Part shown: positions 20,116 to 51,758 of the stretch, in pieces
How positions within the stretch are numbered: the first letter of the stretch is position 1
Layout of the letters: every line of letters starts with the position of its first letter
Source of the DNA: a virus
Reading direction: 5' to 3' (one strand)
IMG/VR virus record: IMGVR_UViG_3300013101_002049
Coordinates: 86,129 to 150,128 of that record
Length of the DNA stretch: 64,000 nucleotides
Translations under genes and position numbers: made by a program
The notes under the pieces: model-generated
Seen by the model: only the letters and a program-made list of their open reading frames with translations
The model's database searches: none
What the model was told of the DNA's origin: nothing

Positions 20116-22563
20116 ATGGATAAGGGAAAGAAAATTAGAGTTTTTGCGTATTGTGATTCACCAACTTGTGCTACAGGATTTGGTACAGTTTCAAGGAATA
20201 TATTCGAAGGTTTGTATAACACAGGTCGTTACGATATTGATGTGTTTGGAATTAATTATTGGGGTGATCCTCATAATTTTCCGTATCGCATTTGGCCAGC
20301 AGGTACAAATAAAGATAGAGACCCTTATGGTAGGCAAAAAGCAGTAAGTATGATACCTCGTATGCAATTTGATCTATTATTTTTGTTACAGGATTCATTT
20401 ATTATGGATTTTTTGCCCGTTTTGTTGCCTCATATGAAGGAAAATAGCTCTAAATCTTTTAGATCAATACTATATTTTCCGGTGGATTCTGTTTTGAAAG
20501 AGAAGTGGGGTAAAAATATTTCGGATGCTGACACTATCGTTGCTTATTCTGAATTTGGAAAGCAAGAAGCTTTGAAAGTTATGCCTAATCATGAGGATAT
20601 GAAAGTTATACCGCATGGTGTTAATACTCGTGAATTTTATCCACTACCTAAGCATGAAGTTGAAGCTTTTCGTAAAGAATATTTTAAGTCAGAAGCAGAT
20701 AAATTTATTATTACAAATCTTAATCGTAATCAACAACGTAAGGATGTTCCAAGAACTATTCAAGCTTTTAAAGAGTTTAGAAAACAAGTTCCTGAATCTA
20801 TTTTGTATCTTCATATGGCTATGCAAGATCAGGGATGGGATTTACCTGAGATATGTAGACAGATTGGACTGGATATTACTAAGGATGTTATTTTTCCGCA
20901 GAATTTTGGGCCTAATCAAGGTTATCCTCGTGAAATTGTTAATGCATTATATAATTCAAGTGACGTCATTGTAAGTACAACGCTTGGCGAAGGTTTTGGC
21001 CTTTGTTTAAGCCCCGATACTAATGTTTATACATCTAATGGTATTAAGACGATGGACGAATTAACAATAAATGACGCTGTATTATCGTCTAATGGTGAAT
21101 ATAATAATATCGAAGCTATATTATCTAGGGACTACAACGATTATTTGTATGAAATAACTACTTGGTTAAGTAATATACCTATAAAAGCATCGTCAGATCA
21201 CGGTTTCCTAGTATACAATGATGAGTTTGTTTGGAAGAAAGCTTCACAATTAAAAATAGGTGATAAATTGCTTTTTCCGTGTAATTATGCGTATAAAAAT
21301 GAGAATACTACTATTGATGTGCTAGATACTATTTATACATTTTTGAATAAAAGGCAAAAGGATAATATTGTAGTTAAAAATGGCCAGGTTCGTATACAAT
21401 CGAATTTTAAACAAGAAGAAAATTTTATACCGAAATATATAAATATTGATAAAGATTTTTGTAAATTGATGGGTTTGTATTTGGCAGAAGGGTCTTTAAG
21501 TTCTGTTAAGATGGATTCTGTAACATTTTCTTTTAATAAAAATGAAAAGGAGTCTATCGAGTTTGTTATCGCTAAAATGAAAGACGTTTTTGGGCTAGAT
21601 TTTTATGAACTCAAAGATAAACAGTTGAATTATAATGGATATTCTATAAGATTTTATTCTTCCGTAGTTGCATATTTATTTTATGCATTATGTGGCAAAG
21701 GTGCTAGAACAAAGAAAATTTCAACTATATTATTAAATTTAGATAAGCCAATGTTAATTAAATTAGTAGAAGGTGTGTATATTGGTGATGGTAGTTATAG
21801 CGAGTCTCAATATGAAATATCTTTCTCTACAACTTCTAGAGATATAGCTTATAATTTACGTTTGATTTTGTCACGTCTTGGTATATTATCATCTGTACGT
21901 ACTTCTAGAGTAGAATATAAAGTGAATGTTAGTGGTGTGTCGCGAGAAAATTTGCAAAAACTATTTGGTATGAATGTTGTTAAGGTTGATAGAACAAGAG
22001 CAAATGAGCGGGCTTCTATAAGTGATGAGTATTTAATATTACCGGTAAAGAATATTGATAAAGTACATTATAAAGGAAAACTTATAGATATTCAAGTAGC
22101 AAATACTAATGATTTTGTTGCTGAAAATGTTATTGTTCATAATTCGTGGATTGAAGCCATGGCTACTAAAGTACCAATTGTTATGCCAAATAATACAGCT
22201 ATGTCGGAATTTATTACTGAGGACAGGGGGTATCTTGTTAATAGCGGCAGCAATCCAAGTTTATGGACAGTAATTCCACATGATAATGAAGTTATGCGTC
22301 CATTAGTAGATGTTGATGATATGGTGAAAACTCTAGTTCATATTTATAATAATAGAGATGAAGCACGTACTAAAGCTGAAAATGCTTATAAATGGATTGT
22401 TAATGAGATGGATTGGCAGCGGGGTATTGTACCGCGATGGGTTGATGTTTTTGACGAAGCTTATGAATTGATTCAGAGAGAGGATAAAGAGCATAGTGAG
22501 GATGTAGAAGCACTTGTTGACCAATTAGGTAAGAAAAAAATTATTGAGTCGGAGGAATTATAA
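20116..22563 (+). CDS. GT4-type glycosyltransferase interrupted by an intein
   Basis: 815 residues precursor; about 435 after intein removal. The N-extein has the GT-B start CDSPTCATGFGTVSRNIFEG and VIPHGVNTREFYPL; the junction reads GEGFGL^SWIEAMA, the donor-sugar binding E-x7-E motif of GT4. The intein occupies residues 297-676. The next gene (22564) has the same motif uninterrupted (GEGFGLVPFEAG). The enzyme should move a nucleotide sugar onto an acceptor in the glycan island; the substrate is unknown. Preceded by AGGAGG. Confidence 0.85.
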   Translation: MDKGKKIRVFAYCDSPTCATGFGTVSRNIFEGLYNTGRYDIDVFGINYWGDPHNFPYRIWPAGTNKDRDPYGRQKAVSMIPRMQFDLLFLLQDSFIMDFLPVLLPHMKENSSKSFRSILYFPVDSVLKEKWGKNISDADTIVAYSEFGKQEALKVMPNHEDMKVIPHGVNTREFYPLPKHEVEAFRKEYFKSEADKFIITNLNRNQQRKDVPRTIQAFKEFRKQVPESILYLHMAMQDQGWDLPEICRQIGLDITKDVIFPQNFGPNQGYPREIVNALYNSSDVIVSTTLGEGFGLCLSPDTNVYTSNGIKTMDELTINDAVLSSNGEYNNIEAILSRDYNDYLYEITTWLSNIPIKASSDHGFLVYNDEFVWKKASQLKIGDKLLFPCNYAYKNENTTIDVLDTIYTFLNKRQKDNIVVKNGQVRIQSNFKQEENFIPKYINIDKDFCKLMGLYLAEGSLSSVKMDSVTFSFNKNEKESIEFVIAKMKDVFGLDFYELKDKQLNYNGYSIRFYSSVVAYLFYALCGKGARTKKISTILLNLDKPMLIKLVEGVYIGDGSYSESQYEISFSTTSRDIAYNLRLILSRLGILSSVRTSRVEYKVNVSGVSRENLQKLFGMNVVKVDRTRANERASISDEYLILPVKNIDKVHYKGKLIDIQVANTNDFVAENVIVHNSWIEAMATKVPIVMPNNTAMSEFITEDRGYLVNSGSNPSLWTVIPHDNEVMRPLVDVDDMVKTLVHIYNNRDEARTKAENAYKWIVNEMDWQRGIVPRWVDVFDEAYELIQREDKEHSEDVEALVDQLGKKKIIESEEL
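21004..22143 (+). other. intein with LAGLIDADG endonuclease, in the glycosyltransferase
   Basis: 380 residues. Starts CLSPDTNVYTSNGIKTMDEL (block A); block B is KASSDHGFLVYN; ends LIDIQVANTNDFVAENVIVHN, followed by Ser as +1 nucleophile. Two LAGLIDADG motifs are visible, LMGLYLAEGS and LVEGVYIGDGS, so a homing endonuclease is present and looks intact. Terminal His-Asn is canonical. Confidence 0.9.
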
Positions 22564-23682
22564 ATGGAGATACGGGGTATTAAATATGTAGGCCCTATAT
22601 TTGATGTGTCTGGTTATGGGCAAGCAGCTAGAGGGTATGCTTTGTCATTACATAAATTGGGAATTCCTTTGACTATTGATTCTGTATCTTTTGAAGAGGG
22701 GTTGGCTGATTTTGGAGAAACTAGTCGTATTTTAGCTCCTCTTGTAGATAAAAATATAGATTATAATATAGTAATTATCCATCTAACTGCTAATTTATTT
22801 TGTTCTAAGGCTGAACCTGGTAAAATGAATATAGGTTATTTTGTGTGGGAAACCGATAAAGTTCATGAGGAATGGGTGGAAGAGGCCAATAAAAGTGTAA
22901 GTTTTGTGATGACTGCTTCTCAATGGGGAGCAGATATATTTAGAAAATCTGGTATAACTGTGCCGGTGGCTGCTATTCCTCATGGGATTGATGCTGATGA
23001 ATTTGTTGATGTTGACCCATATACTGTTGCTGGTGTAAAACAGAATGCTTATAAATTTTATGGAATATTTCAATTTACTGAACGTAAGCACCCGATGGCA
23101 TTAATTAAATCATATTGGAGTGCTTTTCAAAATAATGAAAATGTAGCTCTTATTTTGAAAACGTATCGTAATGGATTTGCGGATAGTGAAAAAGAGGCTA
23201 TACGAGCAACAATAAAAAGATTAAAAAAAGTAACTAATATGCCTATATACCCACCTATATATTTAATATCTGAACGTTTGGATAGATCTGAACTATTAGG
23301 ACTTCATAAAACATGTGATTGTTTGGTTCATTTGGATCGTGGGGAAGGTTTTGGTTTGGTGCCTTTTGAAGCTGGTGTATGCGGCAATCCTATATTAATT
23401 ACTGGATGGGGCGGTGCACTAGAATATGCTAAGGAAGATAATAGTTATTTAGTTAATTATACTCTTACGCCAGTATTTGGCATGCCTTGGTCACCATGGT
23501 ATTCTGGAAATCAGTTATGGGCTGAACCGGATTGTGGCCACGCGATTGAATTACTGCGTGAAATTTATAATAATCAGGGTGAAGCACGTATCCGTGGTGA
23601 GAAACTGAAACAATATATTATTGATAATTTTAGTTGGGAAAATGTTGGTAGTAAAATAATAGAAACAATAAAGTCTTTGTAG
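22564..23682 (+). CDS. GT4-family glycosyltransferase
   Basis: 372 residues, GT-B fold. YVGPIFDVSGYGQAARGYAL at the N-terminus, IPHGIDADEFV, FTERKHPMALIKSY, and the donor motif DRGEGFGLVPFEAGVCGNPI. A paralogue of the preceding glycosyltransferase, carrying no intein at the same motif. Starts one base after the previous stop. Acceptor and donor unknown. Confidence 0.82.
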   Translation: MEIRGIKYVGPIFDVSGYGQAARGYALSLHKLGIPLTIDSVSFEEGLADFGETSRILAPLVDKNIDYNIVIIHLTANLFCSKAEPGKMNIGYFVWETDKVHEEWVEEANKSVSFVMTASQWGADIFRKSGITVPVAAIPHGIDADEFVDVDPYTVAGVKQNAYKFYGIFQFTERKHPMALIKSYWSAFQNNENVALILKTYRNGFADSEKEAIRATIKRLKKVTNMPIYPPIYLISERLDRSELLGLHKTCDCLVHLDRGEGFGLVPFEAGVCGNPILITGWGGALEYAKEDNSYLVNYTLTPVFGMPWSPWYSGNQLWAEPDCGHAIELLREIYNNQGEARIRGEKLKQYIIDNFSWENVGSKIIETIKSL

Positions 23683-23692
23683 GAGATTAGAA

Positions 23693-24610
23693 ATGAATGT
23701 AATAATGAGACCAGTTTGGAATAGACCTGAGATGCTTTATTTATCAATGGAAGCTGAGCTGGAAGCTCGTAAGCACCATGAGTTTTCGAATGATTTACTA
23801 ACAGTTTTTGTTTTGGATCATGGGTATAATGAAAAAGTATTAGAAATAGTTGAGAGTTATCCTGAGCCAAAAAAAATTATTAAAAGACAAAAGCGCTTAG
23901 GCTTAACCGTTAATATACTTGAAGGTATGAAAGAATCATTTACACATGCTGATGATTACATTATTTATATAGAAGATGATATGGTGGTGCACAAGACTTA
24001 TTTTCAGTTTTTGGATGTACTTATGAATTTAGTAAAACCAGAAGAATATTCTGTGATTATAGGTCATAGTAAAGGTATTCAGAACAAAGGCCGCAAAAAT
24101 TTTGATCCTCCTAATGTGGATTTAAATGTGGTGGTGAAAGACCATGTGTATGCAGCTTTCGCTAGTTTGATAAGAAAAGAATTTTTTAATAATTATATTT
24201 TACCTTGTATTGGACCGACGTATTATAAAAATTTTGGTACGAGAGATAAATTTGTCACTGCTTTGGGAACTAAATATCAACAAGATAAGCGATTTAAATA
24301 TAAAGGTAAATCTATGCATGCTCATAATGAGCAAGCTGGTTTAATTAATCGTTTGGTTGATGTAGCATTAATTGAAGAAGGTAAATGTACTTTAAGACCT
24401 GTTGCTACAAGAACTATACATATAGGAGTGTATGGAAAAAATCGACCTGGCAATATACCTGGGAAAGATTTTAACGAACGGCTATCATTACTTAGACATG
24501 CGGTAGAAAACAATAAGTTGTATGATTTAACTAGATCTAAACAATATGATGACTATGAAGGATTTTCGCCGAGATTAGATGAATGGGATGGGACTTTATA
24601 TGTCAAATAG
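23693..24610 (+). CDS. GT-A-type glycosyltransferase (GT2-like)
   Basis: 305 residues. N-terminal MRPVWNRPEMLYLSMEAELE and LLTVFVLDHGYN, then YIIYIEDDMVVHKTYF, an EDD metal/nucleotide-sugar motif of the GT-A fold, and HAHNEQAGLINRLVDVA near the end. No membrane segment. Probably a cytoplasmic transferase adding a sugar to the island's product. The end overlaps the next gene by 11 bp. Confidence 0.65.
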   Translation: MNVIMRPVWNRPEMLYLSMEAELEARKHHEFSNDLLTVFVLDHGYNEKVLEIVESYPEPKKIIKRQKRLGLTVNILEGMKESFTHADDYIIYIEDDMVVHKTYFQFLDVLMNLVKPEEYSVIIGHSKGIQNKGRKNFDPPNVDLNVVVKDHVYAAFASLIRKEFFNNYILPCIGPTYYKNFGTRDKFVTALGTKYQQDKRFKYKGKSMHAHNEQAGLINRLVDVALIEEGKCTLRPVATRTIHIGVYGKNRPGNIPGKDFNERLSLLRHAVENNKLYDLTRSKQYDDYEGFSPRLDEWDGTLYVK

Positions 24611-25472
24611 AATACTTTTTTGTACTGGTGAAGGCGTTGGAAATGTTATTCAAACTATACCTGTACTTCGTACTTTAAGAGAATCACTAGGGGTTAAAAT
24701 AGATTTTTGGTATGTTTATGGTACTTTTCAATTGCCTAAGATAATTCCATATGTTGATAAATGGATAGTTGGCAATCAGATTCGAAACATGGATATGAAT
24801 AGATATGTTGGCGCTGTATCTACTAAATGGACAAGGAAGCATATTAAAAATTTACCTATTCCTATTCTAAATAAGATTTCTGATTTAAGTATGGTAAGAT
24901 CAGAAGTCGATTGTTATATGGATATTGCACGAAGTTTAAAAGTAAACGATGAGGATTTATTATGGTGGGGTAAATGTAATTATAATAGATCTGACGAATT
25001 TTATGATGTAGTGATACATAACGGTTATAATTTTAAAGGATCTTCTGATTGGAAGTTAAAAAGTTATCCAAGATATAAAGAAGTGGTGAAATTATTATCT
25101 GGAGATGTATCTTTATGTTCAGTGGGCAGTAAAGGTGAACATATTAAAGGTACGATAGATAAAACCGGTTTGAATATTCTAGATAGTTTAGGCATAATTA
25201 AAAATGCTAAAGTATTTTTGGGTAATGATAGCGGATTATATCATTGTGCGAATGCATTAGATGTGCCAAATTTAGTGATATTTACTTATACGTCTACAGA
25301 AAAAAATTATGACAAAAGATTTCATAGAAAAGCTAAAATAATATGCAGGAAAGATTTAGAATGTAGATGGTGCCAATGTGAACCAAGATTTAAAACCTGT
25401 AAGACAAGAGAATGTAGAAATATAGAACCTAAATTGATAGTAGATGTTGTATTGGAGAAATTAAATGGATAA
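24600..25472 (+). CDS. GT9-like (heptosyltransferase family) protein
   Basis: About 290 residues from the ATG at 24600, which overlaps the previous stop by 11 bp; two earlier in-frame ATGs exist. ILFCTGEGVGNVIQTIPVLRTL resembles the N-terminal motif of ADP-heptose:LPS heptosyltransferases, and FLGNDSGLYHCANALDVPNLVIF is the conserved GNDSG-H-A-A donor motif. A Cys-rich segment near the end (CRKDLECRWCQCEPRFKTC) is unusual and may bind metal. Confidence 0.75.
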   Translation: MSNRILFCTGEGVGNVIQTIPVLRTLRESLGVKIDFWYVYGTFQLPKIIPYVDKWIVGNQIRNMDMNRYVGAVSTKWTRKHIKNLPIPILNKISDLSMVRSEVDCYMDIARSLKVNDEDLLWWGKCNYNRSDEFYDVVIHNGYNFKGSSDWKLKSYPRYKEVVKLLSGDVSLCSVGSKGEHIKGTIDKTGLNILDSLGIIKNAKVFLGNDSGLYHCANALDVPNLVIFTYTSTEKNYDKRFHRKAKIICRKDLECRWCQCEPRFKTCKTRECRNIEPKLIVDVVLEKLNG

Positions 25473-26145
25473 ATGTTTGGGTTTTGGTGGACTTGGTGAT
25501 TGTTTTATAGTAGGATTAAAATTGATGGAATATCCTAATGAATATGTATATGTGCATATAGATAATTCTAAATCAAGATTAACATCTTCTATGTATTTAA
25601 TGGAACATTTAGGTATACCTGCTATTGGGAAGGTAGTAAAAAATATTAAACGGTGGTGGTATACAAACCATAATCAATTTGATAAATGTTTTAATGTGTT
25701 TGCTAATGGGTATATTGATATACCAAAAAGGGATTACCATTGGGAACCTTGTAGAGATGAAGGATATAAAAATCCATATAGAAAAGAATTAAAAACGAAA
25801 ACAGATTTTATAGCAGTACAAATTAATTCTGGTGGGCAGAGAAGTTATAAATATAAGCCAATAATTGAATATGTTTATGCAAATTATGATAGAAATAAAA
25901 TACTATGGTTTGGCACTGATACAGAATTTCATGCTGAATATGGAACAAATTATTGTGGGAAAATAGATTTTATTTCAGCGTTAGAAAAAATATCTGAATG
26001 TAAATATTTTGTTGGTTTTAATAGTGTGTTACTTTATTGGTCATTGTGGAATAAATTAGATTGTTTTTTATTTACAGATCATCAAGGTAAAGAGGATTTA
26101 CGAATACATAAAGAGTGGAAAAAACATTTGGAGTTTGATATATGA
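25465..26145 (+). CDS. GT9-like protein, divergent
   Basis: 226 residues. CLGFGGLGDCFIVGLKLMEY at the start and FISALEKISECKYFVGFNSVLLYWS near the end resemble a reduced GT-B/GT9 fold (compare GLGD and GNDSG regions), but the donor motif is altered to GFNSVL. It overlaps the GT9 gene before it by 8 bp and the sulfotransferase after it by 4 bp. Function uncertain. Confidence 0.5.
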   Translation: MDKCLGFGGLGDCFIVGLKLMEYPNEYVYVHIDNSKSRLTSSMYLMEHLGIPAIGKVVKNIKRWWYTNHNQFDKCFNVFANGYIDIPKRDYHWEPCRDEGYKNPYRKELKTKTDFIAVQINSGGQRSYKYKPIIEYVYANYDRNKILWFGTDTEFHAEYGTNYCGKIDFISALEKISECKYFVGFNSVLLYWSLWNKLDCFLFTDHQGKEDLRIHKEWKKHLEFDI

Positions 26146-26777
26146 AAATTCTTATAATAGGCTTTCAACGAGGTGGTACTACATTACTTAGGCGATTGAT
26201 GCATAATCATCCGGATGTACAATGTATGATTCATGAGAAGCGCATTTTAAATCGTAAAGATAATGGGGAATCGTTATTAAATGATTTAGACATAGATAAA
26301 ACTGGAAATTGGGGTGAGAAAGTACCGTGGAATTCTTCAGATGGATCTGAAATAATAATTTATGGTAAGAAATGGTTAGAAGAATTCGGGGATGAAGCCA
26401 GGATAGTTCATATAGTAAGACATCCGGTTGATAGTGGGTTGTCAAATCAAAGACTTGGTTGGATGCAACTAAACAGAGCTGTGGATAATGCTCAAAAATC
26501 TATACCTTTAGTAATAAACGCTTTTAAAAATGATAATAGATATTTGGCTATTGCTTTTGAAGATTTAGTTACTAATCCAGAAAAAGTATTGAAAAAAATA
26601 TTTAAGTTTTGCGTACTTAATGATGACGGGGCTTCCAGAGATATAAGTAATTTAAAAAAGAAAGATTTAAGATACTATGATGGTATAAAAGCTAGTAAAG
26701 CATATGAATATAAAAAGGTAGATAATTTGAATTGTAAAATACCTGATTATAGTAAAATACTGGAGTTAATAAAATGA
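26142..26777 (+). CDS. sulfotransferase-family protein
   Basis: 211 residues. The PAPS-binding 5' loop is clear at the N-terminus (IIGFQRGGTTLLRRLMHNHP) and the 3' phosphate motif follows (IVHIVRHPVDSGLSNQRLGW). Family members transfer sulfate from PAPS to hydroxyls or amines of sugars. In a glycosyltransferase island the obvious substrate is a glycan, a rare decoration for a phage. Starts with an ATGA overlap. Confidence 0.78.
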   Translation: MKILIIGFQRGGTTLLRRLMHNHPDVQCMIHEKRILNRKDNGESLLNDLDIDKTGNWGEKVPWNSSDGSEIIIYGKKWLEEFGDEARIVHIVRHPVDSGLSNQRLGWMQLNRAVDNAQKSIPLVINAFKNDNRYLAIAFEDLVTNPEKVLKKIFKFCVLNDDGASRDISNLKKKDLRYYDGIKASKAYEYKKVDNLNCKIPDYSKILELIK

Positions 26778-27751
26778 AGTATTTAATGTTGCGTGGCCAG
26801 GTACCAATTGATCGTGATCCAAAAGAGATAGTATTTGAATATTTAGAAGACATTGATGATGTTTGGACACAATTATTTTATGCTATATTAGATAAGGATG
26901 ATGAAGGTGAATTATGGTATTGGGGTGGTACACGAGAAAAAAAATTTACAGCGAATTTTGTAGAGCGCTGGGTACCAAATTATGACCAATACAAGACGAG
27001 TTTTATTCCTGATGTAATATTTTGTCGTGGGGGATTTCCAGAATATCATGTAGTTCTTCGAAGATTTCCTAACTCTATAAAGATTTATTATGGGGCTGGT
27101 AGAAGATTTTTACCCCAACCCGGTTTTTATGATTATGATATCATTTTGCAAGATTCACCAGAACAAGTACTGGAATGTCGAGAAAAATTTCCTAAAGCAT
27201 TGACTACATTATTTATTAAGCCAGCGGCTGATAATATATTTTATCCGATGCCTCATATTAAAAAAGAATATGATATTTGTTTTCCTGCTAATGCGGCTCA
27301 AACTTTTAAAGGTCATAAATTTGTGTATGACACTGTGCCAAGTGATATGACATTGTTAAATCTTGGTAATCGAAATGATAGATATAAGTACCCAGCCAAT
27401 GTTACTTCTTATAGAGTGTTAAGACCCAAAATGGCTGAAAATATAGCTAAATGTAAAGTGGGTATAGTAGCAGTTCAAAGTGAAATAGATTCATGCCCTA
27501 GAGTAATTCCAGAAATGTTAGCATGCGGCATTCCTATTGTCGCACTTGATAGAGTCCGGTTTTGGCGAGATAAATATATAGTCACTAGTGTTACTGGTGA
27601 ATTAACTACGTTGAATAAATTCTGGATAAAAGTAAGATTTGTACTTGATAATTTAGAAGAGTATGTACCGAGAAAATATTATGAAAATAATTTATCACTT
27701 GACTATGCTGCTAGATTTATAAAGGAGAAGATAAATGAAGTTAGCATTTAA
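26774..27751 (+). CDS. GT4-like glycosyltransferase
   Basis: 325 residues, GT-B type. KPAADNIFYPMP, DICFPANAAQTFKGHKFVYD, and near the C-terminus VQSEIDSCPRVIPEMLACGIPIVALD, matching the donor-site region PR-IPEMLACG of GT4 enzymes. The usual EGFG motif is replaced by SEIDSCPR. Overlaps both neighbours. Confidence 0.7.
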   Translation: MKYLMLRGQVPIDRDPKEIVFEYLEDIDDVWTQLFYAILDKDDEGELWYWGGTREKKFTANFVERWVPNYDQYKTSFIPDVIFCRGGFPEYHVVLRRFPNSIKIYYGAGRRFLPQPGFYDYDIILQDSPEQVLECREKFPKALTTLFIKPAADNIFYPMPHIKKEYDICFPANAAQTFKGHKFVYDTVPSDMTLLNLGNRNDRYKYPANVTSYRVLRPKMAENIAKCKVGIVAVQSEIDSCPRVIPEMLACGIPIVALDRVRFWRDKYIVTSVTGELTTLNKFWIKVRFVLDNLEEYVPRKYYENNLSLDYAARFIKEKINEVSI

Positions 27752-28685
27752 CGGATTAAATAGCGGATTAGGTAATAATGGTGGATCAAGAACAATTATT
27801 AAATGTTGTGAAGTTTTAAATAGTTTGGGACATAGTTGTGATATAATTGCTAATGTAGATAATTTTTCATGGTTTGATCATAAACCAGTTATAAATTATT
27901 TACCAACCAATTTGGATGCCATTATTTCAATAGCTGCTGTAGATGTACCACTTACTTTAAGAATAGCAGTCCCAGTTAAAGCTTGGTATATTAGAGGACA
28001 TGAATCATGGGCTAATCCAGAGCATCTTTTGGTGGATTATTATAAAAATGAAAATATTTTGAATGTAGTAAATTCAAATGGACTTAAACAATTATTGTCT
28101 ACGTGGGGCGCTGATTCCTATGTCATTTATCAAGGCATTGATTTTGATTGGTGGGAAGATAGAAAGTTACGTAAGGATGGTATAATACGTATAGGATGTT
28201 TATACGGATCAAAACTTACTAAACGTTGGCAAGATTTTGTTAAACTTCATAGCATACTTGGTGATGAAAAATATGAATACGTATCTATTGGAGACGTTAA
28301 ACCTAAATCGAATTTTATAAAAAAATCATGGGCTAATATAAATCATGATGAACTTTGTAATGTTTATAGTTCTTGTGATATATGGTTTGCACCTACTGAA
28401 CTAGAAGGTCTTCATAATGTTCCTATTGAGGCTGCTCTATGTGGATGTTTGATAGTGTGTGGTGATGAGCCTATGAATGGGATGATATATGATTATGCTT
28501 TTCCTAATAATACCGCAATGGTTTATGACAGGAAAGACATTAAGCATGCTGCTGAACTTATTAAAAATCCTAATTGGGAATTAATTGGTAGAATGCAAAA
28601 ACATATTAAAGAAAATATAGGATCACGCGAGACTAATATAAAGAAACTTGTGAAGTTATTGGAGATGACTGATGAAACTATATAA
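27735..28685 (+). CDS. GT4-like glycosyltransferase
   Basis: 316 residues. FNGLNSGLGNNGGSRTIIKC resembles the GT-B glycine-rich start, VIYQGIDFDWWE the interdomain motif, and APTELEGLHNVPIEAALCGCLIV the donor-binding E-x7-E motif. Overlaps the previous gene by 17 bp and the methyltransferase after it by 14 bp. Confidence 0.75.
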   Translation: MKLAFNGLNSGLGNNGGSRTIIKCCEVLNSLGHSCDIIANVDNFSWFDHKPVINYLPTNLDAIISIAAVDVPLTLRIAVPVKAWYIRGHESWANPEHLLVDYYKNENILNVVNSNGLKQLLSTWGADSYVIYQGIDFDWWEDRKLRKDGIIRIGCLYGSKLTKRWQDFVKLHSILGDEKYEYVSIGDVKPKSNFIKKSWANINHDELCNVYSSCDIWFAPTELEGLHNVPIEAALCGCLIVCGDEPMNGMIYDYAFPNNTAMVYDRKDIKHAAELIKNPNWELIGRMQKHIKENIGSRETNIKKLVKLLEMTDETI

Positions 28686-29241: not shown

Positions 29242-29258
29242 AGAGGTAGGATTTAAAG

Positions 29259-29990
29259 ATGTGGGATCAATTAAGAGATATAAAGATGACAAGAAGTATA
29301 GATAATCTTGAAGAAGGCTGTTTAACTTTCGCTAAGACAGAAAAGCATTTACAAAAACTTAAAAATATAAATTTAAAGATTAGTGTTATGGTTCCTCATG
29401 ATATTGATTCTTCTGGTTTGCCTTCTAGCGTAAATATATATAAAGTAAGAAAGGGTGAAAATCTTAAAAATGTTTTTATACGTATCCATAATAGAATAAA
29501 TAAATATGTAGATCCAAAAGAGAATATTATAAGTTCTAAGGCAATTATTGATCCAACCGCGATAATTGGAATACCTGGAAATAATATAACCAAAATGGCT
29601 AATGGTCGAATAATTAATATGAAACATATGGGTAATGTTATAATCGAAGACTATGTTGAGGTACAGGCTTTATCAATTGTGCATAGATCTGTTTTTGATT
29701 CAACAATTATAAGAAAAAATGCACAAATTTTTGCAAAAGTTAACATTGGACATAATTGTGATATAGGAGAAAGCACTATTATTTGCCCAGGAAGTTTATT
29801 AGCTGGTGGAACTAAGGTTGGAAGTAATTGTTATATATGGCAAGGTGTTATAACTAGAAGTAATATATCTATATGTGATAATGTGATAATTGGAGCTGGG
29901 TCTTTAGTGTTAGATGATATTAAAAAACCTGGAGTTTATTTTGGAAGTCCGGTTAAATATATAAAACCTTATGATGAGGAAATACGATGA
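29259..29990 (+). CDS. hexapeptide-repeat acyltransferase (PglD/NeuD-like)
   Basis: 243 residues. After an N-terminal region of about 90 residues, the left-handed beta-helix begins (SSKAIIDPTAIIG, HMGNVIIEDYVEVQALSIVH, KVNIGHNCDIGESTIICPGS, NVIIGAGSLVLDDI, GVYFGSPVKYIKP). The likely catalytic His is in NIGHNCDIG. It probably acetylates an amino- or hydroxyl-sugar nucleotide. Confidence 0.72.
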   Translation: MWDQLRDIKMTRSIDNLEEGCLTFAKTEKHLQKLKNINLKISVMVPHDIDSSGLPSSVNIYKVRKGENLKNVFIRIHNRINKYVDPKENIISSKAIIDPTAIIGIPGNNITKMANGRIINMKHMGNVIIEDYVEVQALSIVHRSVFDSTIIRKNAQIFAKVNIGHNCDIGESTIICPGSLLAGGTKVGSNCYIWQGVITRSNISICDNVIIGAGSLVLDDIKKPGVYFGSPVKYIKPYDEEIR

Positions 29991-30463
29991 ATATAATTGG
30001 TAATAAATTTGAACATGGAGAAGAATTTGAAATAGGTTATTTTAATGTAATTGGTAATAATGTTAAAGTGGGTAGTTATGTAAAGATTGGCCATCATTGT
30101 ATAATTGAGGATAATGTAGAAATTGCGGATAACGTTATACTTCAAGGAAATATTAAAATAGCTGAAGGAGCAGTTATTGGTAATAATTGCGTATTAAAGC
30201 ACGGTACTATTTTAACAAATAAAACAACCCTTAAAGATGACGTTTTTATGGGGCCTAATACGATTACACTTGGAGGCACACATGAAAGAAAAACTGAGCA
30301 TGGTACTATCATAGGAAATAGATGTTATATTGGTGGAGGTACTCAAATAGCCGCAAATAAAAAATTATGTGATGATGTAACGGTCGGAGCCCTTTCATTT
30401 GTTAATAGAAATATAGTTAAACCTGGACTATATGTTGGTATTCCTGTAAGGAGTCTTCGATGA
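29987..30463 (+). CDS. hexapeptide-repeat acetyltransferase
   Basis: 158 residues, almost all left-handed beta-helix repeats: VKVGSYVKIGHHCIIEDNVE, IAEGAVIGNNCVLKHGTIL, DDVFMGPNTITLGGTHERKT, NRCYIGGGTQIA, and the closing PGLYVGIPVRSLR. Similar in plan to WlbB-type sugar acetyltransferases. Starts with an ATGA overlap, so it is coupled to the preceding acyltransferase. Confidence 0.72.
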   Translation: MNIIGNKFEHGEEFEIGYFNVIGNNVKVGSYVKIGHHCIIEDNVEIADNVILQGNIKIAEGAVIGNNCVLKHGTILTNKTTLKDDVFMGPNTITLGGTHERKTEHGTIIGNRCYIGGGTQIAANKKLCDDVTVGALSFVNRNIVKPGLYVGIPVRSLR

Positions 30464-31389
30464 AAATACTATTATTAAATCCTAATCGCATTAAACGTCA
30501 TAATTGGGGGCATCAATTATTTAAAAACGAATTATCTAATTACCATGATGTTACCTATTATGGAAGCGGATTTTCTGGTTATAATAAAAATCTAACAGTA
30601 TCAGAAGTAATAAAACAATTTAATATACCTTTTGATTTAATTTTAACTTATGAAGCTAAATGGAGTTCATTTGCACGTGGTTTGAAAAATGTGGGAGATA
30701 TTCCAAAAGCACATATTCAAATTGATTATTCAAAAGCTACGAAAACATGGAATGGTGCGGCTAAAAAGGAAAATGTTGAAAGGTTTTTAAATAAAAATAA
30801 ATATGATATATTTTTTGTAACCTCGACTTCAAATCAAAGTGCTTTTAAAAAAAGTTTAAAAACTGATAAGGTGTTTGTTTTGCCGTTTTCGGTAGATACA
30901 ACGATATATAAAGATCAAAATCTTAAAAGAGATATCGATGTTATGGCAACTTATAGTACACATATTGGAGTATATCCTAATAGAAAGAATATACAGAATT
31001 TGATTAAGAAAATGAATTTAAAATCTTTTACTTCACGCGTACTTCATAGAGCTTATGTGAAAGCTATTAATCGGTCTAAAATTTTCATTATTAGTAATAA
31101 TTTTAATAAACGATTGAGTATGAAATATACTGAAGCTATGGCTTGTGGAGCTATGGTTTTAGCGGATGAACCAGAAGATTTAGAATTACAAGGATTTAAA
31201 AATGGTAAACATTTAGTATTATATAAAGATTTAAAGGATATGAAGAAAAAAATATCATATTATCTTAAACATGATGAGGAACGCCAAAAAATAGCCAATC
31301 AGGGAATGAAATTTGTACAGAATAATCATAGTTGTAAAAAGAGAGTGGAACAATTCACTGAAATAATTAAACGGGAGCTTAACATATGA
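30460..31389 (+). CDS. CgeB-like glycosyltransferase
   Basis: 309 residues. DLILTYEAKWSSFARGLKN and AHIQIDYSKAT in the N-domain; VFVLPFSVDTTIYKD, RDIDVMATYSTHIGVYPNRK, and KRLSMKYTEAMACGAMVLAD (E-x7-E-like donor site), ending LKHDEERQKIANQGMKFVQ, which is the pattern of the glycosyl transferase group 1_2/CgeB family. Starts and ends in 4-bp overlaps. Confidence 0.75.
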   Translation: MKILLLNPNRIKRHNWGHQLFKNELSNYHDVTYYGSGFSGYNKNLTVSEVIKQFNIPFDLILTYEAKWSSFARGLKNVGDIPKAHIQIDYSKATKTWNGAAKKENVERFLNKNKYDIFFVTSTSNQSAFKKSLKTDKVFVLPFSVDTTIYKDQNLKRDIDVMATYSTHIGVYPNRKNIQNLIKKMNLKSFTSRVLHRAYVKAINRSKIFIISNNFNKRLSMKYTEAMACGAMVLADEPEDLELQGFKNGKHLVLYKDLKDMKKKISYYLKHDEERQKIANQGMKFVQNNHSCKKRVEQFTEIIKRELNI

Positions 31390-31953
31390 AAAAAATAAAT
31401 TTAGGCACCTCTGTTAAATGGCAAGCTGTTGATAAAAGAGACGTATTGGATGTTCGTGAAAAAAGTTTTGAATGATATGCCATTTCCTAAAGGGTTAATA
31501 TTAGAAATAGGCTGTGCATCAGGTAATTTTTTTAATATATTACGCAATAAGAATTTTAAAAATAATCGTTATATTGGAATAGATTTAGATTCACGGCAAA
31601 TAGAAAAAGCTAGAAGTAATTTTCCTAAAGAAGATTTTATTTGTGGTAATGTATTAGATGATAAATTTAATAAGCTTATAAAATCGGCTAATATTATAGT
31701 ATCTTTTGAAGTATTAGAGCATATAGATTTGGATAAAAAATTGTTTAATAAAATTAAAAGTAATACTCCTATTATATTCTCAGTTCCAAATTTTAAATAC
31801 AGAAGTACATTTCCTGATGGTCATAAAAGATGGTTTGATTTGGATGGGTGGATAGATAGATATAAAGACATTATAGATATTAGTGAAGTATGGTCTATTA
31901 AACATTATAAAAAAGATCGAAAAATATTTGTTTTTCAATCTACTAGGAGATAG
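31386..31953 (+). pseudogene. SAM-dependent methyltransferase with an apparent +1 frameshift
   Basis: The expected start is the ATG at 31386, in an ATGA overlap with the previous stop like its neighbours. That frame reads MKKINLGTSVKWQAVDK and then hits a stop. Shifting by one base at the A-run 31434-31437 continues as ETYWMFVKKVLNDM into a normal methyltransferase: LILEIGCASGNFFNIL (motif I), YIGIDLDSRQIEKA (motif II), IIVSFEVLEHID, ending at 31953. Either a real frameshift, a programmed slip or a sequencing error. Without repair, translation would have to start at the TTG at 31429 (174 residues). Confidence 0.7.
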
Positions 31954-31955
31954 TA

Positions 31956-33017
31956 ATGAAAATATTTTTAGTAGGTGGAGCTAGACCAAATTTTATAAAA
32001 ATAGCCCCAATCACCAGAGCTTGTATTAAATTTGATATGGAATACAAACTTATTCATACCGGGCAGCATTATGATTTTAATATGTCGGAATTATTTTTTG
32101 AGCAATTAAAAATAAAAAGTCCAGACTATAATTTGAATGTAGCCTCATCCACTCATGCTGATCAGACTGCTAAAATTATGCAAAGATTCGAAAAAATATG
32201 TTTAATGGATACGCCTAATGTGGTGATTGTTGTAGGAGATGTTAACTCCACTTTGGCCTGTTCGATTGTAGTTTCAAAGATAGAAAATATTAAATTAGCT
32301 CATGTTGAAGCGGGATTACGTTGTTTTGATAGACGTAAGCCAGAAGAAATAAATCGGGTAGTGACCGATGTGTTATCAGATTATTTATTTGTTACTAATG
32401 ATGGTGCTGTAAAAAATCTTACAAAAGAAGGTATAGAAAGAGAAAAAATATTTCTGGTTGGTGATACTGTTATTGACAGCTTAATTCATAGCTTACCTAA
32501 GATAAAGACTTCTGTTGGAGATGATTATGTTTTAGTAACTATACACAGACCGTTAAGTACAGATAAAAAAGATCGTTTAGAAACTATTTTGAAAGCTTTA
32601 GTAAAAATATCTAAAGATATAAATATAGTTTTTCCTATACACCCTAGAACTCTAAATAAAATAGAGCAATTTAATCTTCAAAGCTATATCAAAAAGTTAA
32701 ATATAATAGAACCTGTAGGTTATTTAGATTTTTTGTCGTTATTGGTGAATTCTAAAGCAGTTGTCTCCGATTCTGGAGGATTACAGATTGAAACGTCTTT
32801 TTTAGGAATCCCATGTATTTCTATAATGAATAGTACAGCTAATTTATATACGTTGAATCAAGGCACCAATGTATTAGTGAGTTATGATGTGGAAGATATA
32901 TACACACAATTAATGAGGGTGATAGGAACAAATTGTGTGCTTTATAGAGATAAACTTACTGATGGAAAGTCAGCAGAGCGAATATTAAAAATACTTATGG
33001 AGAAAGAATATGTTTAA
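31956..33017 (+). CDS. UDP-HexNAc 2-epimerase (WecB/WbpI-like)
   Basis: 353 residues, full family length. Signatures: GGARPNFIKIAPITRA, LIHTGQHYDFNMSELFFEQL, VVGDVNSTLACSIV, HVEAGLRCFDRRKPEEINR, VTIHRPLSTDKK, FPIHPRT and SDSGGLQIETSFLGIPC. It interconverts UDP-GlcNAc-type and UDP-ManNAc-type sugars. Given WbpB- and WbpD-like neighbours it could be the WbpI-type epimerase acting on a diacetamido-uronic acid; sequence alone cannot separate the two. Confidence 0.85.
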   Translation: MKIFLVGGARPNFIKIAPITRACIKFDMEYKLIHTGQHYDFNMSELFFEQLKIKSPDYNLNVASSTHADQTAKIMQRFEKICLMDTPNVVIVVGDVNSTLACSIVVSKIENIKLAHVEAGLRCFDRRKPEEINRVVTDVLSDYLFVTNDGAVKNLTKEGIEREKIFLVGDTVIDSLIHSLPKIKTSVGDDYVLVTIHRPLSTDKKDRLETILKALVKISKDINIVFPIHPRTLNKIEQFNLQSYIKKLNIIEPVGYLDFLSLLVNSKAVVSDSGGLQIETSFLGIPCISIMNSTANLYTLNQGTNVLVSYDVEDIYTQLMRVIGTNCVLYRDKLTDGKSAERILKILMEKEYV

Positions 33018-33642
33018 TCGCATACTTTGTTTAGGAGCGCATACAGATGATGGAGAGTTTGGATGTGGTGGAACATTAGCTAAATTTATTGGTGAAAATA
33101 AAGAAGTATATTATGCTACATTTTCATTTGCTGAAAAATCTTTAATTAAAGGATTTACTAATGATTCAACACATAAAGAGATTTTAGAAGCAACTTCGAT
33201 TTTAGGATTGAATAAAGATAATCTCATTACTTTTAATTATGAAGTTCGAAAATTTGATAGTTATCGCCAAGATATATTGGAAGATATGGTTAAATTAAAT
33301 AGTCGATTAAAACCAGATTTAGTGCTCACGCATAATACCCAGGATACACATCAGGATCATGAAGTTATTTGTAAGGAAAGTTTTAGAGCTTTTAAACAAA
33401 CTTCATCTATTTTTGGATATGAATCATTTAAAAATAATCGGAGATTTAATTCAGATATCTATATCGAGTTATTAGATAAGTATATAGATATAAAATTAAA
33501 AGCCATTCAATGTTATAAATCACAGATAGTTAAGAAAGAAAGTAATACTTTTATAATTAAGCAAGCAGCGATGGTTAGAGGTGCAAATATTGGATGTAAA
33601 TATGCAGAATGTTTTGAAAATATTAAATTTATAATGAGGTAA
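33010..33642 (+). CDS. PIG-L/LmbE-family deacetylase
   Basis: 210 residues. The zinc motif AHTDDGEFGCGGTLAKF (AHxDD) is at the N-terminus, HNTQDTHQDHEVICKES provides the second HxxH-type ligand set, and YESFKNNRRF follows. The family removes N-acetyl groups from GlcNAc-containing substrates. It overlaps the epimerase by 8 bp, so a deacetylation step on the same sugar is likely. Confidence 0.8.
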   Translation: MFNRILCLGAHTDDGEFGCGGTLAKFIGENKEVYYATFSFAEKSLIKGFTNDSTHKEILEATSILGLNKDNLITFNYEVRKFDSYRQDILEDMVKLNSRLKPDLVLTHNTQDTHQDHEVICKESFRAFKQTSSIFGYESFKNNRRFNSDIYIELLDKYIDIKLKAIQCYKSQIVKKESNTFIIKQAAMVRGANIGCKYAECFENIKFIMR

Positions 33643-33649
33643 TAATAAA

Positions 33650-34528
33650 ATGAAATTTGCTCTAATAGGGGCTGCTGGATATGTAGCTCCAAGACATATG
33701 CAAGCTATTTATGAAACTGGAAATGATTTAGTAGCAGCATTAGACCCCCATGATTCTGTTGGTATATTGGATCGTTATTTTTTTAATTGTGAGTTTTTTA
33801 CTGAAACTGAAAGGTTTGATAGGCATTTGGAAAAATTGCGTAGAGAAGGTGAGAGGGTGCATTATATTAGTATCTGTTCGCCAAATTATTTACATGATGC
33901 TCATTGTAGATTAGCTCTTAGAGTTGGATCGAACGCTATTTGTGAAAAGCCTTTAGTATTAAATCCTAGAAATATAGATCAGTTGGTAGAATTAGAGAAA
34001 GAATATAATAAAAAAGTTTATGTAGTTTTGCAATTAAGATTGCAGAAAGAACTATTGAAACTTAAATCAGAGTTAGATAACACATATCGAGTGGTGGATA
34101 TAAAATATATTACCCCCAGAGGTCAGTGGTATTTTAGATCTTGGAAAGGTGATGAAAATAAATCTGGTGGATTAGCTTCTAATATAGGAGTGCATTTATT
34201 TGATATGGTTATTTGGTTGTTTGGAAAAGTAGAGGATTTTGTGATAAGTAAAAAAATAAACAATAAGGTAGTGGGTACATTACTATTAGAAAGAGCCAAG
34301 GTAAAATTTATGTTATCTACTGATAATCAAGATTTGCCGGATGGTTATGAATTTTATAGATCTATAACTATTGATGGTAATCCTATTAAGTTTGATAAAA
34401 ATTTTACTCATTTACATACAGATATCTACAAAAATATATTGAATGGAGATGGTTTTGGCTTAGAAGATGCTAGACCTTCAATAGATTTGGTTTACAAAAT
34501 AAGGAAGTTGAATAATGTGGTGTCATAA
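33650..34528 (+). CDS. Gfo/Idh/MocA dehydrogenase, WlbA/WbpB-like
   Basis: 292 residues. N-terminal NAD site [55 protein letters not shown], and the family's [10 protein letters not shown] (EKP catalytic Lys). [22 protein letters not shown] is the usual C-domain motif. It matches WlbA/WbpB, which oxidises C3 of UDP-GlcNAc uronic acid. It directly precedes a WbpD-like acetyltransferase. Confidence 0.82.
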
Positions 34529-35000
34529 ATCTTCATATATAGATGACTGTGTAATTGGCGAAGGTACTAAAATATGGCATTTTTGTCATATTTATAACTC
34601 AATTATAGGTAAGAATTGTGTTATAGGTCAAAACGTGATGATAGGCCCAGATGTAAAGGTTGGTAATGGCTGTAAAATACAAAATAATGTATCATTGTAT
34701 AAGGGCATTGTATTAGATGACGATGTATTCATAGGGCCGTCAGCTGTTTTTACTAATGTAATTAATCCACGGTCTTTTATAAATAGAAAAGCTGAATTTT
34801 TAAATACATTTATTCATAAGGGCGCTACTATTGGAGCTAATGCTACCGTATTATGTGGCGTCACTATTGGAGAATATTCTTGTGTAGCAGCTGGGGCTGT
34901 GGTAACTAAAAATGTTGATCCTTATACATTAGTTGTTGGTAATCCTGCTAAATATACAAAAATGATTGGCTGCGATTTTAATTTGAATGGGGTAATATAA
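34515..35000 (+). CDS. WlbB/WbpD-like N-acetyltransferase
   Basis: 161 residues. Strong match to the WbpD pattern: [95 protein letters not shown]. This family adds the 3-N-acetyl group to UDP-2-acetamido-3-amino-glucuronate. Overlaps the dehydrogenase by 14 bp. The aminotransferase (WbpE) and the WbpA oxidase needed in between are not in this window. Confidence 0.85.
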
Positions 35001-35001
35001 T

Positions 35002-35934
35002 TTGAAAGATTTTAAAAAAGGCTTAGGAAAAATATTAGTTATCGGTGATTTAATGCTAGATAATTATATATTGGGAACTGTTGATAGGGTTTCTCCAGAG
35101 GCACCAGTACCGGTAGTTCGTGTAGATAAAGAAACATTAACACTCGGGGGATCAGCGAACGTTGTAAACAATTTCTGTGGGTTAGGAGTAAAACCCTTAA
35201 TTTGTGGTGTAGTTGGTTCTGATATTAACGCAGGGCATATATTATCTATGTTAAGTGAAAAAGATTTATTTATAGATGGTATTATAATTGATGGTGATAG
35301 ACCTACAACGATTAAGACTAGGGTGGTTGGAAACGATCAACAAGTAGTGCGTATTGATTACGAGAAAATATCCACAGTAAATAATCGTATTACTAAAGAG
35401 ATGTTAAATTTTGTACAGACAAACAAAAGAAGTATTGATATGATAATCATTTCTGATTATGGTAAAGGTGTTGTTTCACGTCAGCTTATTGTTGAATTGA
35501 CAGCTATAAGTGGATCTATACCAATTTTAGTTGATCCACATGTTACCAATTTCAAACATTATGTTGGGATTACAGGTTTAACACCTAATCATCATGAGGC
35601 TGGTGATTTTTGCGGTTTTAAATTGACTAATGATGAACGAGTAATTAAAGCAGGCGATTATATTTTAGATAAGTTAAAATGTGAATATGTATTGATTACT
35701 AGAGGTTCTGAAGGCATGACATTATGTACAAAGTCTGATGTGTTTCATATATCTACAGTTGCTCAAGAGGTATATGATGTTTCTGGCGCCGGGGATACGG
35801 TTATTAGTGTATTTGCTTATGGATTAGTACAAGGTATGTCATTATTTGAATCAGCTAAACTATCTAATAAAGCTGCTGGAATTGTGGTTGGTGAACGAGG
35901 GACCTCAGTTATTACGAAGGAGAAATTATTATAG
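35002..35934 (+). CDS. PfkB-type sugar kinase, HldE kinase-domain-like
   Basis: 310 residues from a TTG start, chosen because it follows GGGG by 9 nt; no in-frame ATG fits better. VIGDLMLDNYILGTVDRVSP and EAPVPVV are diagnostic for the D-glycero-D-manno-heptose-7-phosphate kinase domain of HldE; LGGSANVVNN, GLTPNHHEAG and the ATP/anion site DVSGAGDTVISVFAYGL follow. Only the kinase half is here; a nucleotidyltransferase follows as a separate gene. Confidence 0.82.
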   Translation: MKDFKKGLGKILVIGDLMLDNYILGTVDRVSPEAPVPVVRVDKETLTLGGSANVVNNFCGLGVKPLICGVVGSDINAGHILSMLSEKDLFIDGIIIDGDRPTTIKTRVVGNDQQVVRIDYEKISTVNNRITKEMLNFVQTNKRSIDMIIISDYGKGVVSRQLIVELTAISGSIPILVDPHVTNFKHYVGITGLTPNHHEAGDFCGFKLTNDERVIKAGDYILDKLKCEYVLITRGSEGMTLCTKSDVFHISTVAQEVYDVSGAGDTVISVFAYGLVQGMSLFESAKLSNKAAGIVVGERGTSVITKEKLL

Positions 35935-35948
35935 TTGGAGGTGTATAA

Positions 35949-36725
35949 ATGGATTTTGTAATTATCAGTGGTTATTTTAATCCAATTCATAAAGGACATA
36001 TAGATTATATCAAGGCAGCAAAAGATCTTGGTGATTCGTTGATCGTTATTGTAAATAATGATGTACAGCAAGAAATTAAGAAAGGTAAAATAATTTTACC
36101 TGAAACAGATAGAATGGAGATTGTTAAATCTTTGAAGTATGTGGACGAATGTGTTCTAGCTATTGATCAGGATAATACAGTGATTAAAACATTAGAAATG
36201 TTGGCAGACAGAATAAAATCTGAAGGTGACTATTGTATTAGGTTTGCAAACGGTGGTGATAGACATTCAGAGGGGGTAGTTCCTGAATCAGTTTTATCCG
36301 AGAAATACAATATTGAATTTGTTTATGGGGTAGGTGGAACAACTAAAAGGGATTCAAGTACTCGTATCAACTCTTTAATGAAAGAATCTTTTACTATAAC
36401 TCATCCTGAATATCATAATAAGGTTTGGGGGTCAGAAGAATGGATAGTGAATAGTCAGTTATATTGTGGAAAGATATTAAATGTTAATAAAGGGCATAAT
36501 TGTAGCTATCATTTTCATAAAATAAAAGATGAAACGTTTTATATTTTATCTGGTACTGTAGCAATGACGATTGAAGGGGAAACACGTATCATGGGTATAG
36601 GAGATGTTGTTCATTTAGCTCCATATACTAAACACACATTCAAAGCTTTAGAAAACACTCAGATATTAGAGATTTCAACACAACATTTTGAGGAGGATAG
36701 TCATCGATTGACTAAAAGTATATAA
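35949..36725 (+). CDS. cytidylyltransferase-like nucleotidyltransferase fused to cupin
   Basis: 258 residues. Residues 1-145: SGYFNPIHKGHIDYIKAAKD (HxGH motif), LIVIVNNDVQQ, RFANGGDRH and GGTTKRDSSTRI, like the HldE C-terminal half or other cytidylyltransferase-like enzymes. Residues 150-258: cupin with KVWGSEEWIVN, YHFHKIKDETFYILSG, GDVVHLAPYTKHTF, EISTQHFEEDSHRL. The fusion suggests nucleotide transfer coupled to isomerisation of a sugar. Preceded by GGAGG; follows the kinase. Confidence 0.78.
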   Translation: MDFVIISGYFNPIHKGHIDYIKAAKDLGDSLIVIVNNDVQQEIKKGKIILPETDRMEIVKSLKYVDECVLAIDQDNTVIKTLEMLADRIKSEGDYCIRFANGGDRHSEGVVPESVLSEKYNIEFVYGVGGTTKRDSSTRINSLMKESFTITHPEYHNKVWGSEEWIVNSQLYCGKILNVNKGHNCSYHFHKIKDETFYILSGTVAMTIEGETRIMGIGDVVHLAPYTKHTFKALENTQILEISTQHFEEDSHRLTKSI

Positions 36726-36727
36726 AA

Positions 36728-37231
36728 ATGGAAATGATTTTTGAAAGACCGATAAAATTAATTGTCTCCGAAATAGATGGAGTTCTTACAAATGGCACAT
36801 ACGCAGAGGATGAATTAGGTAATACCTTATATAAAGTTTTTAATCAAAAAGATTTTTTTGTGATTAATGAATTAAAGAAGTATTATAAGGTAGTTTTTCT
36901 TTGTGATGATAATAAGATTAATTATAATATGTGCCAGCGTAAAAGTTTGCCATTTTATTGGGGTAAAGGAAGTAAAGGTAAGTATGAAATTATACCTAAT
37001 ATATTAAGGCGTTATGATGCTACCCCTGATAGTACTATTTACATAGGTTCGAAACTATCAGATAAGAAATGTATGCAATTGATACCTTATTCTATGTGCC
37101 CGGATGATGTTGGTGATTATTTAAGAAGCATTGCTTGGGCTCCATTTATTGCAAAAGGTGGTGAAGGTATTTTTATTGAGTTGCTCGACCTTTTACAAGA
37201 GAATATAAGAAAATATATAAATTTAATATAA
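36728..37231 (+). CDS. KdsC-like HAD protein with altered catalytic motif
   Basis: 167 residues, KdsC/C0-type HAD without cap (LIVSEIDGVLTNGTYAEDEL, FNQKDFFVINEL, IYIGSKLSDKKCMQLI). The nucleophile motif, usually DxDGVxTDG, reads EIDGVLTNG, so the first Asp is Glu, and motif IV reads GSKLSD rather than GDDxxD. Phosphatase activity is doubtful; a regulatory or binding role is possible. Last gene of the glycan island. Confidence 0.7.
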   Translation: MEMIFERPIKLIVSEIDGVLTNGTYAEDELGNTLYKVFNQKDFFVINELKKYYKVVFLCDDNKINYNMCQRKSLPFYWGKGSKGKYEIIPNILRRYDATPDSTIYIGSKLSDKKCMQLIPYSMCPDDVGDYLRSIAWAPFIAKGGEGIFIELLDLLQENIRKYINLI

Positions 37232-41606: not shown

Positions 41607-41619
41607 TAGGGGGAAAGAT

Positions 41620-49097: not shown

Positions 49098-49098
49098 A

Positions 49099-51629: not shown

Positions 51630-51758
51630 ATGATGCCGACAGAACAAAGGTGCCCAAGTTGCGGCACAATATTTATTGGATCTGACGCAATAGGAGATGT
51701 GTGTGATAATTGTAGATCTTACAAGTGGAAAGTTGTGCCTTTTAGATATAGATCCTGA
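51630..51758 (+). CDS. zinc-ribbon miniprotein (42 aa)
   Basis: 42 residues from ATGATG at 51630 behind AAAGGAGAA; an in-frame start at 51573 would run through the preceding gene. RCPSCGTIFIGSDAIGDVCD then NCRSYKW gives a two-CxxC ribbon, close in plan to the ribbons at 18100 and 56788. Confidence 0.55.
   Translation: MMPTEQRCPSCGTIFIGSDAIGDVCDNCRSYKWKVVPFRYRS

Follow-up and report, generated by a model that had tools for sequence, protein, structure and literature searches.

An invariant glycosyltransferase pair and an exchangeable sugar-gene cassette within the replication block of an uncultivated tailed phage

The stretch analysed here, referred to as the window, comprises 64,000 nucleotides (bases 86129-150128) of the 150,128-base viral record IMGVR_UViG_3300013101_002049. 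Between positions 20116 and 37231 it contains 20 successive open reading frames (ORFs) on the plus strand, and according to Pfam and NCBIfam this locus is a cluster of virus-encoded glycosyltransferases (GTs) and nucleotide-sugar enzymes. Seventeen of the 20 match Pfam GT or sugar-enzyme families, 15 of them above cut-off; the ORFs were called mechanically, and several of the annotations in the central part score below the curated Pfam or NCBIfam cut-offs. The two GTs at the left end, GT4a and GT4b, are retained at the same place in related phages, whereas most of the genes that follow, here termed the cassette, are exchanged. A first-pass annotation had described about 20 consecutive glycan genes at this position, and nearly all of its assignments are upheld by the family searches. 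It had also read overlapping gene starts as the mark of one unit. Since the junctions from GT4a to the terminal HAD gene range from -32 to +39 nt, with 9 of 19 overlapping, the genes are likely to be transcribed as a single unit; no sizeable gap occurs until one of 137 nt in front of the clamp loader. Promoter and terminator scans performed no better than shuffles.

GT4a and GT4b display the two Rossmann domains of the GT-B fold and the donor-site E-x7-E motif of GT4 enzymes. For both, the nearest solved relative is the chlorovirus protein B736L (3OY2), with profile matches of E = 1e-11 (GT4a) and 4e-12 (GT4b) and fold matches of E = 2e-20 and 5e-18, respectively. The first gene had been taken for a plain glycosyltransferase; the GT4 assignment holds, and a LAGLIDADG intein within it had been overlooked. 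The insert contains a splicing domain, begins with Cys, ends with His-Asn and splits the donor-site motif between EGFGL and SWIEAMA, a site across which the extein is unbroken in intein-free homologues. Relatives L019, L094, L095, L096 and L103 carry an intein at the EGFGL site as the window does, L023 carries one at a different site, and GT4b has inteins at several sites, two of them simultaneously in L094 and L095. Inteins usually persist in conserved, needed proteins, and their repeated presence in GT4a and GT4b therefore fits a central role of the pair. Outside the pair, inteins are also found in the clamp loader, in ribonucleotide reductase (41560-44763) and probably in RNase HII (46275-47981), which brings the number in the window phage to four. 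Among relatives, an intein lies in the L057 ThyA and, judged from sequence, in the L064 ThyX and the ThyX-like protein of L094.

Relatives were fetched from viral contigs, which are fragments, using GT4a and the PD-(D/E)XK nuclease upstream of it. Of 71 distinct GT4a sequences, 70 are preceded by the nuclease, either immediately or at a short distance, a linkage seen in both directions because the collections were searched with both genes. GT4b lies downstream of GT4a in 48 of the 50 contigs with enough sequence; of the two exceptions, one is cut by the contig end and the other (L108) represents a different context. The resulting frame runs from the nuclease through GT4a, GT4b and the cassette to, in the main clade, a KdsC-like HAD protein, the clamp loader, DNA polymerase A (PolA) and ribonucleotide reductase. 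Homologues of the HAD protein adjoin the clamp loader in 12 sampled records. A separate search for clamp-loader relatives retrieved none, its search patterns probably lying within the intein of that protein; the clamp-loader homologue of L028 lacks residues 54-361. Two isolates preserve comparable arrangements, Flavobacterium phage vB_FspM_immuto_2-6A (immuto) with the same order of nuclease, GT, GT and sugar genes, and Microcystis phage Mel-JY01 with a similar order that includes one extra gene. A free-standing, horizontally acquired island, as the first-pass annotation had called it, can be ruled out: the first two GTs and the last HAD gene belong to a frame that about 70 relatives conserve, and swapping is confined to the genes in between.

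Fourteen complete cassettes were measured, and these span 4.9-16.4 kb with 6-17 genes each; L081 has no cassette on the plus strand. Clustering of 235 cassette proteins yielded 86 clusters, 46 of them singletons, and a Pfam census of 97 cassette proteins returned mostly GT2 transferases, NAD-sugar epimerases/dehydratases, methyltransferases, DegT aminotransferases, Gfo/Idh/MocA dehydrogenases and sulfotransferases. When the window was compared with L033, the core proteins were found to be 76% identical and all 12 replication-block genes to be kept, whereas 12-18% of the cassette genes are shared, and contigs with 71-76% core protein identity can have as few as 12-18% of the window cassette genes in common. 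For L032, which is incomplete, the values are 83% core identity and 29-62% of cassette genes. Over pairs, the shared fraction is 0.50 where core identity is at least 70%, and 0.27, 0.18 and then 0.09 as core identity declines. Cassette exchange outpaces core divergence. Conserved core genes are combined with clade-specific outer genes, as in clusters of the mimivirus and chlorovirus kind. The retention of the starter pair at the same spot, with most other genes swapped, suggests that the sugar decoration made is particular to each virus and most probably sits on the virus's own particle, in the manner of some giant viruses.

Features of the locus and its neighbours (window positions; E values and bit scores for the family named)
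Feature	Coordinates	Strand	Evidence
Methanogen-type thymidylate-synthase-family protein (g63)	10445-11098	+	TIGR03283 E 7e-23, below cut-off; PF00303 45 bits, above cut-off
PD-(D/E)XK nuclease (g76), conserved left neighbour	18966-20105	+	PF12705 E 2.8e-22
GT4a (g77), first invariant glycosyltransferase, intein-bearing	20116-22563	+	GT4 Pfam match; 3OY2 best match
LAGLIDADG intein in GT4a	residues 297-676, about 21004-22143	+	380 residues
GT4b (g78), second invariant glycosyltransferase	22564-23682	+	PF00534 above cut-off; 3OY2 best match
GT2/GT-A transferase (g79)	23693-24610	+	PF00535 E 1.9e-7
GT9 (heptosyltransferase-family) protein (g80)	24579-25472	+	PF01075 E 6.6e-9
Cassette protein g81	25465-26145	+	matches no Pfam family
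Sulfotransferase (g82)	26142-26777	+	PF13469 E 1.4e-17
GT4-like protein (g83)	26774-27751	+	PF13692 E 0.004, below cut-off
GT4-like protein (g84)	27735-28685	+	PF00534 E 1.7e-5, just below cut-off
Possible methyltransferase (g85)	28672-29241	+	PF08241 E 0.17 only
Hexapeptide acyltransferase (g86)	29259-29990	+	PF00132 E 1.3e-14
Hexapeptide acyltransferase (g87)	29987-30463	+	PF00132 E 2.3e-18
GT4-type transferase (g88)	30460-31389	+	PF13524 E 2.1e-24
SAM methyltransferase (g89)	31429-31953	+	PF13489 E 6e-11
Non-hydrolysing UDP-GlcNAc 2-epimerase, WecB type (g90)	31956-33017	+	PF02350 E 6e-92; TIGR00236 (NCBIfam wecB) 288 bits, above cut-off 210
PIG-L/BshB-type N-deacetylase (g91)	33010-33642	+	PF02585 E 1.3e-16
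Gfo/Idh/MocA dehydrogenase (g92)	33650-34528	+	PF01408 E 5e-18
NeuD/WbpD-type hexapeptide acetyltransferase (g93)	34515-35000	+	PF00132 E 5e-31
HldE N-domain-type heptose-7-phosphate kinase, PfkB (g94)	35002-35934	+	TIGR02198 341 bits, cut-off 345
HldE C-domain-type nucleotidyltransferase-cupin fusion (g95)	35949-36725	+	TIGR02199 E 7e-15, below cut-off; PF07883
KdsC/KDN-9-phosphatase-like HAD (g96), invariant right end in main clade	36728-37231	+	NCBIfam only: NF058599 E 8e-15, below cut-off
DNA polymerase III delta'-type clamp loader (g97), right neighbour, intein of about 307 residues	37369-39354	+	PF13177 E 2.6e-25

The commonest transferable GT of the cassettes is g79, homologues of which were placed in 9 cassettes by all-against-all clustering. 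A homologue of g81 that is 84% identical occupies the same position in the close relative L010, where the sulfotransferase between g81 and g83 is missing. The first-pass annotation had listed two methyltransferases; g89 has a Pfam match (PF13489), while g85 is a weak candidate. The kinase, the nucleotidyltransferase-cupin protein and the HAD protein resemble enzymes of the ADP-heptose route, and a GT9 protein is encoded nearby; members of the GT9 family use ADP-heptose as donor. The isomerase of this route was not found in the window cassette. A bacillithiol-like small molecule, with the GT4 protein in the place of BshA and the deacetylase in that of BshB, was considered as a product and rejected, as the NCBIfam scores fall far below cut-off and the deacetylase lies outside the frame.

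The record is confirmed to be that of a phage by its replication, major head protein, baseplate-type and tape-measure genes. No match was returned by a megablast of 20116-37231 against 50,697 phages or by a GT4a search of cellular genome contigs, and a primase search of cellular contigs found only distant relatives, on a Peptoniphilus contig and in mixed metagenome-assembled genomes (MAGs). A MAG assigned to Candidatus Altiarchaeales includes a contig (L137, WJJK01000056.1) with the same replication block, RecA being 45% and primase 38% identical, which reflects either mis-binning or a clue to the host.

None of 25 whole records contains Wzx (PF01943), Wzy_C (PF04932) or Bac_transf (PF02397), and in none does WecA (PF00953) exceed the cut-off; positive controls for these searches matched in 9-13 of 14 genomes. 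A hydropathy scan detected no multi-pass protein in the locus or the sampled cassettes, with single weak peaks at most. An exported polysaccharide, or an O-antigen or capsule locus of the Wzx/Wzy type, can thus be ruled out for the sampled records. The earlier reading, in which no polymerase, flippase or membrane protein had been seen and assembly was placed in the cytoplasm without export, agrees with these results: because flippase, Wzy_C and lipid-linked initiating transferases are missing, the probable site of assembly is the cytosol and the probable substrate a macromolecule of the phage.

We see about an even chance that the locus is a two-layer glycan-assembly unit of the phage that varies the particle surface, with a virion surface protein as the most likely acceptor. 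The cytosolic and invariant GT4a and GT4b would lay a common stub on a phage-made acceptor, and the exchanged downstream cassette would contribute the nucleotide sugars particular to each strain, along with additional glycosyltransferases and the modifications of the cap. For the window phage, the predicted products include a UDP-ManNAc-type sugar and a probable NDP-heptose, made by the kinase, the HAD protein and the nucleotidyltransferase and used by the GT9 protein, and the candidate cap groups are sulfate, methyl and acetyl. The sugars would be added directly in the cytoplasm, with neither lipid carrier nor export, and the resulting variation of the particle surface might serve adsorption or shielding. 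A virion surface protein as acceptor would make the locus the phage equivalent of the mimivirus clade-specific glycogene clusters and of the chlorovirus capsid glycans with their core and variable parts.

As to whether virion protein or DNA is modified, the indications drawn from sequence lean to protein. Relatives of GT4a adjoin capsid or head genes in S-CBS4, phiPsal1, Mae-JY09 and KellEzio. Six-base palindromes occur less often than expected in the window (p = 6e-7), elsewhere in the same genome (p = 4e-4) and in 10 of the 14 relatives, whereas a 49-kb T4 segment, the sole positive-modification control, shows no such deficit (p = 0.36); this avoidance hints that the DNA is exposed to restriction. 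Together with the B736L match, these observations favour a virion protein as acceptor. Several points weigh against this reading. The locus lies within the replication block and does not adjoin capsid genes, and the sugar identities are based on family membership. Neither an acceptor nor a glycosylation motif turned up, though no motif-based search for an acceptor was made. Chlorovirus B736L is itself without a proven acceptor (PMC9614988). Palindrome avoidance is missing from 4 of the 14 relatives, and the test has a single control. Finally, GT4a has a lysine-rich N-terminal tail with a net charge of +9 to +12 in 8 of 13 relatives, which could suit DNA.

If the glycan were instead attached to phage DNA, which we consider rather unlikely, a base hydroxymethylated by a thymidylate-synthase-family enzyme would be glycosylated by GT4a and extended by GT4b and the cassette, blocking restriction enzymes or Cas nucleases. 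DNA retains some weight as acceptor because nearly every contig has the locus flanked by replication genes and because a gene of thymidylate-synthase type often fills the slot separating GT4a from GT4b, its kind varying by contig among methanogen-type ThyA, ThyX and divergent ThyX (L044-L076, L056, L064, L065, L067, L079); RM378 shows a related arrangement adjoining polymerase and reductase genes. The window has a gene of this family, g63, whose homologue occupies that slot in other contigs and which may be a thymidylate synthase or a hydroxymethylase, and at 53667 it encodes a dCMP deaminase. That phage GTs can glycosylate DNA is established (PMC6024577; Pyle 2024 as cited in PMC12619734). 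Against this stands the lack of any proven or universal hydroxymethylase, the ThyA type being confined to 4 of 21 records, weak matches to ordinary ThyA aside. To our knowledge ThyX does not hydroxymethylate, and we know of no DNA glycan that approaches up to 17 genes and sulfation. A Tet_JBP search gave no match, its positive control being equally silent, and the palindromes are avoided in a phage that has three N6/N4 DNA methylases. It would be a long shot that a widespread lineage of large phages coats its own genomic DNA with complex, strain-specific oligosaccharides bearing sulfate, methyl and acetyl groups, cassette recombination swapping the sugar type while two core DNA glycosyltransferases stay fixed.

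The enzymes might also remodel a host glycan or a soluble metabolite, for example to block superinfection by altering the host surface or to deplete host nucleotide sugars. Remodelling of surface O-chains has been proposed for the GT-rich variable regions of pelagimyophages (PMC7029224), and the cassette enzymes resemble those of lipopolysaccharide and capsule synthesis. We judge this improbable, as flippase, polymerase, lipid-linked initiating transferase and membrane anchor are missing from the tested records, even though host enzymes could still act on the product. The high turnover, the many singletons and the homing endonucleases inserted nearby would also be expected if the cassette were a passive dumping site in which bacterial sugar genes, acquired horizontally, collect without serving a shared product. 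That explanation appears very improbable, given that the genes are intact and closely spaced, run in one direction and nearly all encode glycan enzymes, and that the GT4a-GT4b pair, a repeated target of inteins, is retained in almost every contig.

The three N6/N4 DNA methylase genes lie at window positions 45646-46272, 52436-53194 and 55746-56582, the first two adjoined by small radical-SAM genes (45113-45646 and 51697-52455). A 7-deazaguanine modification by way of these radical-SAM genes was rejected, QueE scores being far below cut-off. A peptidyl-tRNA hydrolase of the PTH2 (archaeal) type is encoded at 49042-49503, whereas the replication genes of the phage are of bacterial type. Outside the window, G000:C1:28607-51202, which overlaps L003 and L004, holds a 7531-residue ORF whose C-terminus is tape-measure-like (LSPGEFVLNKEA) and which has, near the N-terminus, a stretch resembling a DEDD exonuclease; at 1.5 Å per residue it would correspond to a tail of about 1.1 micrometres.

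The arrangement resembles a phage "serotype" locus, in which about 70 distinct uncultivated contigs and their cultured relatives keep the starter GT pair and exchange the rest. Should the target be the virion, phage surface sugars would vary in the manner of bacterial capsules, with consequences for adsorption, shielding and host range; should it be DNA, this would be the most elaborate DNA glycan known.

In the literature surveyed, coverage of which is incomplete, we found no description of a conserved frame with an exchangeable cassette in phages. The first-pass claim of an undescribed system is only partly right, in that phage glycan genes, glycosylation of virions and of DNA, and clade-specific mimivirus clusters (PMC9614988) are known. 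Mimivirus glycogene clusters are clade-specific, one comprising 21 genes and sulfate enzymes, and the glycan of chloroviruses is built around a conserved core (PMC9614988, PMC7826918). The locus shares with these systems virus-encoded GTs and sugar enzymes, an invariant core with a clade-specific outer part, and, by prediction, rare sugars of bacterial type; it differs in belonging to a tailed phage, in forming one compact operon inside a replication block and in that its product is a predicted one. Mycobacteriophage virion glycosylation likewise involves phage-encoded GTs, and actinophage relatives of GT4 type adjoin capsid genes, but with one or two GTs near structural genes and no swappable sugar cassette (Freeman 2023, as cited in PMC12619734; PMC11256854). 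DNA glycosylation of the T4/RB69 type (PMC6024577; Pyle 2024) also places GTs in an early or replication region with a thymidylate-synthase-family gene nearby, but it requires a hydroxymethylase and adds one or two sugars, and T4-type GTs are not among the window profile matches. The "host recognition cluster" of pelagimyophages and cyanomyophages (PMC7029224) is similarly a hypervariable region with GTs and rfaE-type genes, but lies in the structural region with tail fibres, and an invariant GT pair is not described for it. Moraphages (PMC12619734) are also large uncultivated phages with several conserved GTs; by their description they differ in being PolB phages, with no cassette described. 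The closest counterpart in gene order is the immuto locus (NC_055915, 48.0-60.0 kb), where a PD-(D/E)XK nuclease and two GTs are followed in one run by a GT2 protein, aminotransferases, a methyltransferase and an epimerase. Its GT pair is about 25% identical to that of the window, its cassette is different, and it has been annotated without a reported function; since immuto is an isolate that shares the gene order, the question of the acceptor can be tested there.

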